Below are positions 40,201-43,200 of a DNA stretch of 64,000 nt, one piece after another. The notes under the pieces are model-generated. The model saw only the letters and a program-made list of their open reading frames with translations. It was not told the DNA's origin and made no database searches. The translations under genes and the position numbers were made by a program. The DNA is taken from the NCBI GenBank assembly GCA_009760855.2, contig WPIO01000062.1, forward strand, positions 1,894,001 through 1,958,000. The letters run 5' to 3'. The first letter of the stretch is position 1. Each line of letters opens with the position of its first letter. Source of the DNA: Cristatella mucedo. Lineage: Eukaryota > Bryozoa > Phylactolaemata > Cristatellidae.

Positions 40201-43200
40201 AAAACCTGTCTATGTCAATGCTTTGTAAGTTACATCGCTTGACAAGCTCGACGTTACCCTGTACATACAAGGGAGCAGGAACAGTAAACGAGACCGAACA
40301 ATGATCTGAGAGGGTCAGTGGGCACACCACAAGGTCAGTGGGGAAGACATCCTTGGGGATCACGAGATCTAGAATATGGCCACCGATGTGGTTGGTACGA
40401 TTAACATGTTGGACCAAACCAAAATTCTCCAGACAGTCAAGAAATGAGCAGACCTGGCTTTTGCTAGGGTAGTCAACGTGAATATTGAAGCTCCTACAAT
40501 CAGTAACGGCCTGTCACACACAAATATTTTAGCGAGGAACTCTGAAAACTCCTCTATAAACAAGTTTAGACAGCCAGGAGGCCGGGATATCACAACAGTG
40601 AGAGGCATTGTCTTTGATGAAGACCTGATTGCAACCAATTCAAACGATGGCCCATGCAAAAAACTTGCACATCTTATAGCCAAATGATTCGCAAACAACA
40701 ATTGCAACCCCGCCACCAACCTTGTCAGAATGCATGGACTGATAGAATGAAAACCCGGGTGGAGTGGTCTCAGAAATACAGCTACTGGAACAAGGCGTTA
40801 TCCAAGTTTTGGTAAACAGAAATGCATCTAGCTTCTAATGGACCACCTGATCGTGGATAAGTATCCCCTTGGTTTTTAGCGAGCGGACATTTAGTAGGCG
40901 GAATTTAAGAGGCTGTCCAACAACTGGGCGACGGCGACGAAGTGGCTTGTATTCACGTCGGCGTGTATCCGGGCCGGCGGAAGCGGGCCCTTCGAATTTG
41001 AATTGGACCTTAGTAACGGCTGCCGGTCGACGTTTCACAGCGTGCTGGGCCACGGCGGGTGGGCTACTACCGCAACAAGTACTATTCATCACTTTAAACT
41101 TACGGGTCGTAGGTTTGATAACCGAGCTGTTGATAGGGCAAACGCAGGATGCAGGAAGGTTCTCACTGACCCACCAAAGAAGAAGGCCTGCCGGTAGGTA
41201 TCGACTAATGGCGACATCGCACCTTATGCTAAGGAGGTCCTATTTTGTGTAGCATATCTGAGGACAGCTCATAAATAGTCACAGCAAAGATAGCAGCAAA
41301 ATACCCGAAGGTATCACGGAGAAATCAGGTAAAGGTCCACACCAGGTTAGGAGTCGCCGAGGCTGCTCTCTAGCACAGGGAGGAATGTCATGCAGTGGCT
41401 AAGCCAAAGCCCAGACTTGAACCCAATAGAATATCTGTCGGACGAAGTCGACCGAACATCAAGGCTCAGAGTTCTCCGGCCCATGAAACTCGATGACGTC
41501 TTTGACGTTTTGAAGGATCGCTGGGAGTAAAGTCCTCCAGAAACGTATCGGAAGCTGGCCGAGTCACTGCAAAGGCAATTGCACGAAGTAAAGAATCGCG
41601 GTGCCTTATATATAATATATATATATATATATAATTCATTTATATAGCACCCCAAGAGAACTTAATCTCTATTAAGGCGCTTCACATGTGCCTCGGGGCT
41701 CGAGCCCACGACCTCAGTCAGACCTTGGTCGGAGCGAGCACCTTAACCGCTAGACCTAGCCTTGACTAGTTATTGATTATTCCCAATAAACTACATGTAA
41801 TTGTATATTTCTTACCTTCTCTGCCTAAAAAAAGGATCATGGTGCCTTGACTAGTTAGAGCGTCGGACCTATACCGGACCGTCGGGGCAAAGCATGCCGC
41901 CTGGAAGCCAGGCGCCGACGAGTAGGAGGGCCGTCGCGGTGAGCGCCGAAGCGTCGGACGCGGCCCGCGTGGAGCCGCCGCGAGTGCAGATCTTGGTGGT
42001 AGTAGCAAGTATTCAAATGAAAGCTTTGAAGGCCGAAGTGGAGAAGGGCTCCATGTGAACAGCAGTTGAACATGGGTCAGTCGGTCCTAAGAGATAGGCT
42101 AACACCGTTCTGAAACGGGGCAATGTCGTCGGTAGCGAGCAGCAGCAAGCCTGTTCGCAGCAGCATGACCGTGCTCTATCGAAAGGGAATCGGGTTATTG
42201 ATCAAATCCAATAAACTACAAGTAATTATATATTTCTTACCTTCTCTGCCTAATAAAAACTGCTAAAGAGTTAGGTCATATCTAAATTTTGCATTTTGAG
42301 TAGAACAGTGTGCGAGTAGCGGGTGTATAGAAACTTTTGGATGCAGCATGCTTCATTTTTAAGAACTATAAGGTGCCTTGTTATCTGGCTAAACTCGCTA
42401 ATGACAAATACGGCTACATATCTTGGGTCTTGACAGCTATCTTGAACAACTGCTGTGTCACGACCGGAAAAATCAGCATTTAACAGGATGACACGTCTAA
42501 GAAGAACAGCATCTAAAGAAGTTCTCGTTTTTCATGCTAAAAATACCTTGGGTTTGCTTACTGAGGGCCTGTACCAAGTTTTCATGAATTGTGCTATGTA
42601 AACGCAGCTTTTAAATCAGCTGCTCTCTACTCTTTGTTTTATCAGAAAACTTTTGCATTGCATCAAGCATATGCAAAAACGAGCTAAACATGATACTCTA
42701 TAAAAATAAATAAGAAGTAGCACGAAGCAAACGATAAGCAACTAAGGGCAAAACAAGACAAGAGACAAAGCTACAGTAGAGACAAAAAGACGACCCTATA
42801 GCAAAGCCTGCTCAGACAGTACAGTGTCCTATGACGGTCACGAGAACCAGACAAGGTTATGCTTGGACCTCGAGCTCAAGACAGCAGGCTGCCAACCCAG
42901 TGATGCCATTGATCAGCATGTAACCTCCTAACATACCTATGCTTTTAACATTTTGTGAGGAGATAAAAACGCCTCGCTGGTTTGGCCCAGTGGTTAAGGT
43001 GTTGGCCCCGACCAAAGTCTGGCCAATTTCGTGGGCACGAGCCCCGTGGCATATGTTGAACACCTGAATAGATATGATCTTAGGGCCCTATACAAATGAG
43101 CTATATTTATTTTATATTTAATGTGAGTTCATTTTCTATTAGAAATTGTTTTAAATCAACAACAAACGACGAATAAAGCATATGTGACATGAACAAAAAA

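Follow-up and report, generated by a model that had tools for sequence, protein, structure and literature searches.

The question raised by this locus is how a piece of 28S rRNA came to lie between two copies of an AT-rich repeat, and whether fragment and repeat are parts of one element. In the window (the whole 64-kb stretch of DNA analysed here), Rfam family RF02543 (eukaryotic 28S) matches positions 41840-42205 with 194.3 bits and E = 7.1e-51, corresponding to model positions 1305-1620 of 3401; this is the sole Rfam match at gathering score in the whole window. A direct repeat of 65 nt (41769-41833 and 42194-42258, 89% identity, spacing 425) stands on either side of it, well above chance level (BLAST E 3.9e-19), and BLAST over the 64 kb found no further copies of this AT-rich block beyond the two. 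The 28S fragment with 65-bp direct repeats described in the earlier note is thereby confirmed, as is its observation of one sequence on both sides of the left block: GCCTTGACTAGTTA is present twice, at 41759-41772 and 41844-41857. An intron of WDR44, the gene name being that of the earlier note, is a plausible setting; WD40-containing frames are present at 27115-27540 and 28197-28553 (minus strand). It is very likely, in our judgement, that the locus is a decayed Tc1 element bearing three scars, namely a duplication of about 85 bp, a 28S piece of about 340 bp within the second duplicated copy and a later SINE (Table 1). Our verdict is that the structure is real but unremarkable, a scar carried by an old Tc1 copy and no new kind of mobile element.

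Table 1. Features of the locus, given in positions of the window.
Feature	Position	Strand	Basis
Tc1-type transposase frame, 3' part, decayed	41387..41607	+	77-residue piece compared with the SB100X C-terminus, E 3.7e-8
SINE inside copy A	41608..41758	-	130-bp match to 29200-29329 at 93.8% identity
Copy A (Tc1 3' end), with the last codons, TGA (41774-41776) and 3'UTR (left AT-rich block)	41764..41830	+	12-copy alignment
First 85-bp unit	41590-41607 + 41764..41830	+	SINE left out
Start of copy B, AAAGGATCATGGTGCCTTGACTAGTTA	41831..41857	+	24/27 identity to copy A, SINE left out
28S rRNA fragment	41858..42197	+	RF02543; final GTTA (42194-42197) common to 28S and Tc1, the 28S part being 41858-42193 if it is left out
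Remainder of copy B: Tc1 3'UTR (right AT-rich block)	42198..42258	+	Repeat match, copy alignment
Remaining Tc1 3'UTR and right end, terminal-repeat-like AAACTTTTGG...	42259..42349	+	12-copy alignment

The genome (572 Mb, 688 contigs) was searched with positions 41759-42262 as query; the search skips very common words and assigned scores to 40 of its 69 first-look candidates, so that the counts are lower bounds. At least 41 match rows were obtained, comprising the window itself, 23 rows with the block only and 17 rows with 28S only at 16 places. The window is the sole row among these 41 (40 of 69 candidates scored) in which 28S is joined to the block, and the join is for this reason most likely a one-off. 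Among the rows obtained, the genome search that the earlier note had proposed thus yielded no family with the same 28S-to-block junction. A block pattern gave 0 matches in viral_contigs, and a 28S pattern gave 0 matches in viral_contigs and 0 in genome_contigs.

The identity of the block follows from its neighbours, both here and at the other copies. Directly to the left of the 28S finding, on the same strand, runs a decayed transposase frame, and a piece of it matches Sleeping Beauty SB100X by phmmer in the C-terminal part that was compared (Table 1); by this match the transposase is of the DD34E kind, with no Pfam family reported for the piece. Once the SINE is removed, the frame closes with GGT GCC TTG ACT AGT TAT TGA, that is, GALTSY and a stop, and each CCTTGACTAGTTA is the end of the transposase frame, one per duplicated copy. 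GCCTTGACTAGTTA runs directly into the block in 14 of the other 23 block rows, all 14 starting at query base 1 or 2; since this contiguity recurs at many other places, both belong to the Tc1 3' end. Loci were fetched for 12 of the 23 block rows. All 12 are ungapped across the SINE site and across the site between GTTA and TTGAT, and all hold a single block without 28S; by BLAST, the Tc1 right end follows the block in every one, the match running from 42194 to 42313 or beyond, and the transposase region precedes it in 11, the exception being L018. As these uninterrupted copies pass from a single block into the right end of Tc1, the AT-rich block is, on the evidence of sequence comparison, the 3'UTR of a decayed Tc1-type transposon, rather than a tail of the 28S piece or a target site duplicated by its insertion. 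The right end is conserved among the 12 copies in the alignment, and AAACTTTTGG... resembles, as we take it, the terminal repeats of fish Tc1 elements. In its C-terminal transposase sequence and in a right end conserved among copies, the element is like Tc1/mariner transposons, of which Sleeping Beauty is the nearest solved protein; this locus differs from them in being decayed and in carrying a duplication, a 28S piece and a SINE inside.

Two composite elements have to be weighed against this result. The first, put forward in the earlier note, is a SINE-like element headed by 28S and present as two copies in tandem, of which the left one would retain no more than the tail. Such copies would account for a block flanking the 28S on both sides, and at one place elsewhere in the genome (L022) antisense 28S is joined to the 5' end of a SINE. 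However, the survey leaves this arrangement extremely improbable: the block, as Tc1 3'UTR, stands without 28S at 23 rows, 28S stands without the block at 17, and among the 41 match rows the same junction recurs nowhere outside the window. The supposed tail, moreover, is Tc1 3'UTR in 12/12 copies rather than a tail of its own with a target-site duplication, GTTA alone being shared. SINE28 is likewise derived from 28S, namely from its 3' end as far as the available part of PMC8010984 describes it; the piece here differs in coming from model positions 1305-1620 of 3401, and no same-junction family is found among the matches listed.

The second composite is a 28S/LINE chimera formed by two sequential insertions at one nick, to which we give hardly any credence. 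Viewed by itself, the window suggested a 27-bp repeat flanking the left block, and chimeras of 28S and LINE-1 are known in human, where the available part of PMC13174262 counts 18 of 50-482 nt, 83% of them sense. The fragment length and the LINE-bearing genome are alike in the two cases, but here the 28S adjoins Tc1 on both sides and no LINE 3' end, and in other copies the block directly continues the transposase end, hence is no insert. The contiguity of the block with GCCTTGACTAGTTA elsewhere likewise overturned the other part of this model, in which the left block had arrived by itself as a short retroinsertion flanked by a duplicated target site of 27 bp.

The repeat around the 28S piece is thus to be read as a change in the Tc1 element, and its unit is longer than the 65 bp given earlier. 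The 65-bp block is real; with the SINE left out, however, the 27 bp upstream of the left block recur as well, at the start of copy B, with an identity that 0 of 2000 shuffles equalled. Because this recurrence lies next to the block, the duplicated unit amounts to about 85 bp, and copies A and B form a tandem repeat of that unit whose joint falls within an A-run. The two copies differ at 10 of 85 positions. Compared with the majority of the 12 other copies over 82 scored positions, 6 derived bases are common to A and B, with 4 further changes confined to A and 5 to B; of the 6 common ones, four also turn up in one to three of the 12. The pattern CTTACCTTCTCTGCCTAA, with at most one mismatch, occurs in the genome only at copies A and B, although the backwards control of this 18-base pattern also gave 2 matches. 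Given these shared derived bases and the confinement of CTTACCTTCTCTGCCTAA to A and B, we conclude that the duplication probably arose in this Tc1 copy or in a very small subfamily; a divergent subfamily may also be the source of the shared bases. None of the 23 block rows reaches the start of copy B, all stopping by query base 76 on that side. The first of the three scars is read as a tandem duplication, made in place and joined at the A-run, of about 85 bp at the 3' end of Tc1. The option of an rRNA retrocopy with an unusual duplication, raised in the earlier note, is right in that a duplication exists, but what is duplicated is the 3' end of the host Tc1 and not the flanks of the 28S.

The order of the other two scars can be read from the copies that lack them. 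Copy B is uninterrupted at the SINE site; the SINE is therefore later than the duplication, and its insertion would have split copy A; GCCTT is repeated around it (41603-41607 and 41759-41763). The SINE ends were placed by comparison with other copies. To the eye the element is tRNA-like, and ARAGORN called no tRNA in 25000-56000. Further copies of this family, also tRNA-like by eye, lie in the window at 29192-29341, 42976-43121 and 54458-54555; the family has an AT-rich tail, and two copies start with GCTGGTTTGG. The same family is found at the L022 joint mentioned above (L022:1501-1702, G000:C550 near 7627929), where about 60 bp of antisense 28S run into the SINE 5' end, AAGATCTG being followed directly by GTTTGGCCCAGTGG; this joint looks like a product of twin priming. 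For the 28S piece, copy A crosses the insertion site without 28S, and the piece therefore came with or after the duplication, barring recombination between two alleles at the A-run.

The 28S piece is seated inside copy B between GTTA and TTGAT. The left joint, AGTTA to GAGCG, has no overlap, whereas GTTA at the right joint is common to 28S and Tc1 and is the sole sequence shared at the joints; poly(A) is absent at the junction between 28S and Tc1. In other 28S pieces, GAGCG is preceded by GGCGCTT or similar and GGGTTA is followed by ATATTCCC, and since these pieces read on past both junctions, the piece in the window is cut inside the gene at both ends. Scored over 336 columns, it departs at 9 (2.7%) from the majority of the 16 other pieces, a yardstick made of dispersed pieces in which some columns hold only three or four sequences. 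Dispersed pieces were used because a 5.8S model revealed no functional rDNA array in the assembly: of its 5 hits, one is beside a bacterial LSU gene, while four fall in stretches without a long 28S. The fragment can thus be classed as a dispersed rRNA pseudogene, partial, diverged, some 340 bp long within Tc1 and set against no functional array; it has no visible function.

An assembly artefact joining 28S to a Tc1 copy is the simplest objection, as the structure is known here from the assembly alone and rDNA is a common source of misjoins. It is very unlikely: the 28S differs at 9/336 columns and the blocks at 10/85, which is unexpected for a recent misjoin with active rDNA, and Tc1 sequence goes on at both sides.

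We lean towards break-repair capture of an rDNA or rRNA fragment, given this anatomy, with a mechanism that rests on one locus. The 28S piece would have entered at a double-strand break as filler, either as rDNA or as rRNA-derived cDNA, and would have been joined by the 4-bp microhomology GTTA on the right and with no overlap on the left. This reading is favoured because the piece has no tail, because the right joint shows microhomology and because the site holds another local rearrangement; the 'captured rDNA' of the earlier note, the best fitting of its three options, is accordingly retained as the favoured mechanism. Microhomology-mediated end joining with templated insertions, in the available part of PMC12426944, is alike in its short joint microhomology and in local copied sequence beside the insert. 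There, however, the templated insertions of polymerase theta are generally shorter than 25 bp, against a copied unit of 85 bp and an insert of about 340 bp here; being so much shorter, they leave polymerase theta alone as no obvious source.

Against capture, GTTA may just as well represent a target-site duplication of 4 bp. The main rival is accordingly a tailless retrocopy, in which a LINE reverse transcriptase copied 28S into the Tc1 relic; we hold it to be unlikely overall, and merely doubtful once this anatomy is taken as given. GTTA on both sides of the 28S speaks for it, as do LINE reverse transcriptase remnants within the window and the ten tailless, 5'-truncated 28S copies that the available part of PMC5322556 counts in human. 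Those human fragments resemble the present one as partial 28S outside an rDNA array, truncated within the gene and devoid of poly(A), but they were chosen, according to the same part of that source, for clear target-site duplications, while GTTA alone is shared here and is also supplied by 28S. Since 28S has GGGTTA at this point, it would yield the 4-bp repeat just as readily, and the lack of poly(A) counts against retroposition as well. Elsewhere in the genome, the BLAST match delimits both ends of 7 28S pieces. Flank repeats do not exceed chance in 6 of them; the seventh, L006, shows one of 8 bp, reached by 6 of 300 shuffles, which is not adjacent to the piece. One of the several LINE remnants in the window, a reverse transcriptase on the minus strand, lies at 39023-39724 (Pfam RVT_1, E 1.5e-13).

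Within the capture reading, the duplication and the 28S piece may even share one origin. The joints are the A-run between A and B, GTTA at the right of the 28S and none at its left, and the divergence of the 28S (2.7%) compared with about 5.5% per duplicated copy gives a Fisher p of 0.13, so that one event and two events are both possible. In a single repair or replication event, copying would have gone back 85 bp at the A-run, moved to an rRNA or rDNA template and returned to Tc1 at GTTA. This is a tentative proposal that we think rather improbable; if true, the locus would be a record of ribosomal sequence patching a break.

By itself the locus matters little. It illustrates that a transposon end, once duplicated, can mimic a repeat bounding foreign DNA, and that the matter is decided by the other copies of the flanks in the genome. 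The 28S pieces at 16 or more other places in the genome offer material for asking how ribosomal sequence escapes; Rfam was run at 8 of the 16, and 6 passed the gathering score, L012 and L013 failing. The 5.8S pieces are located at C11, C687, C88 and C99, with no long 28S adjoining. Contig C3 carries a full-length bacterial LSU rRNA and a 5S rRNA (L050, G000:C3:419000-427000) and for this reason looks bacterial, from a symbiont or a contaminant. In the window itself, a tandem repeat at 47599-47833 has a unit of 124-125 bp in 1.9 copies with 92% matches.
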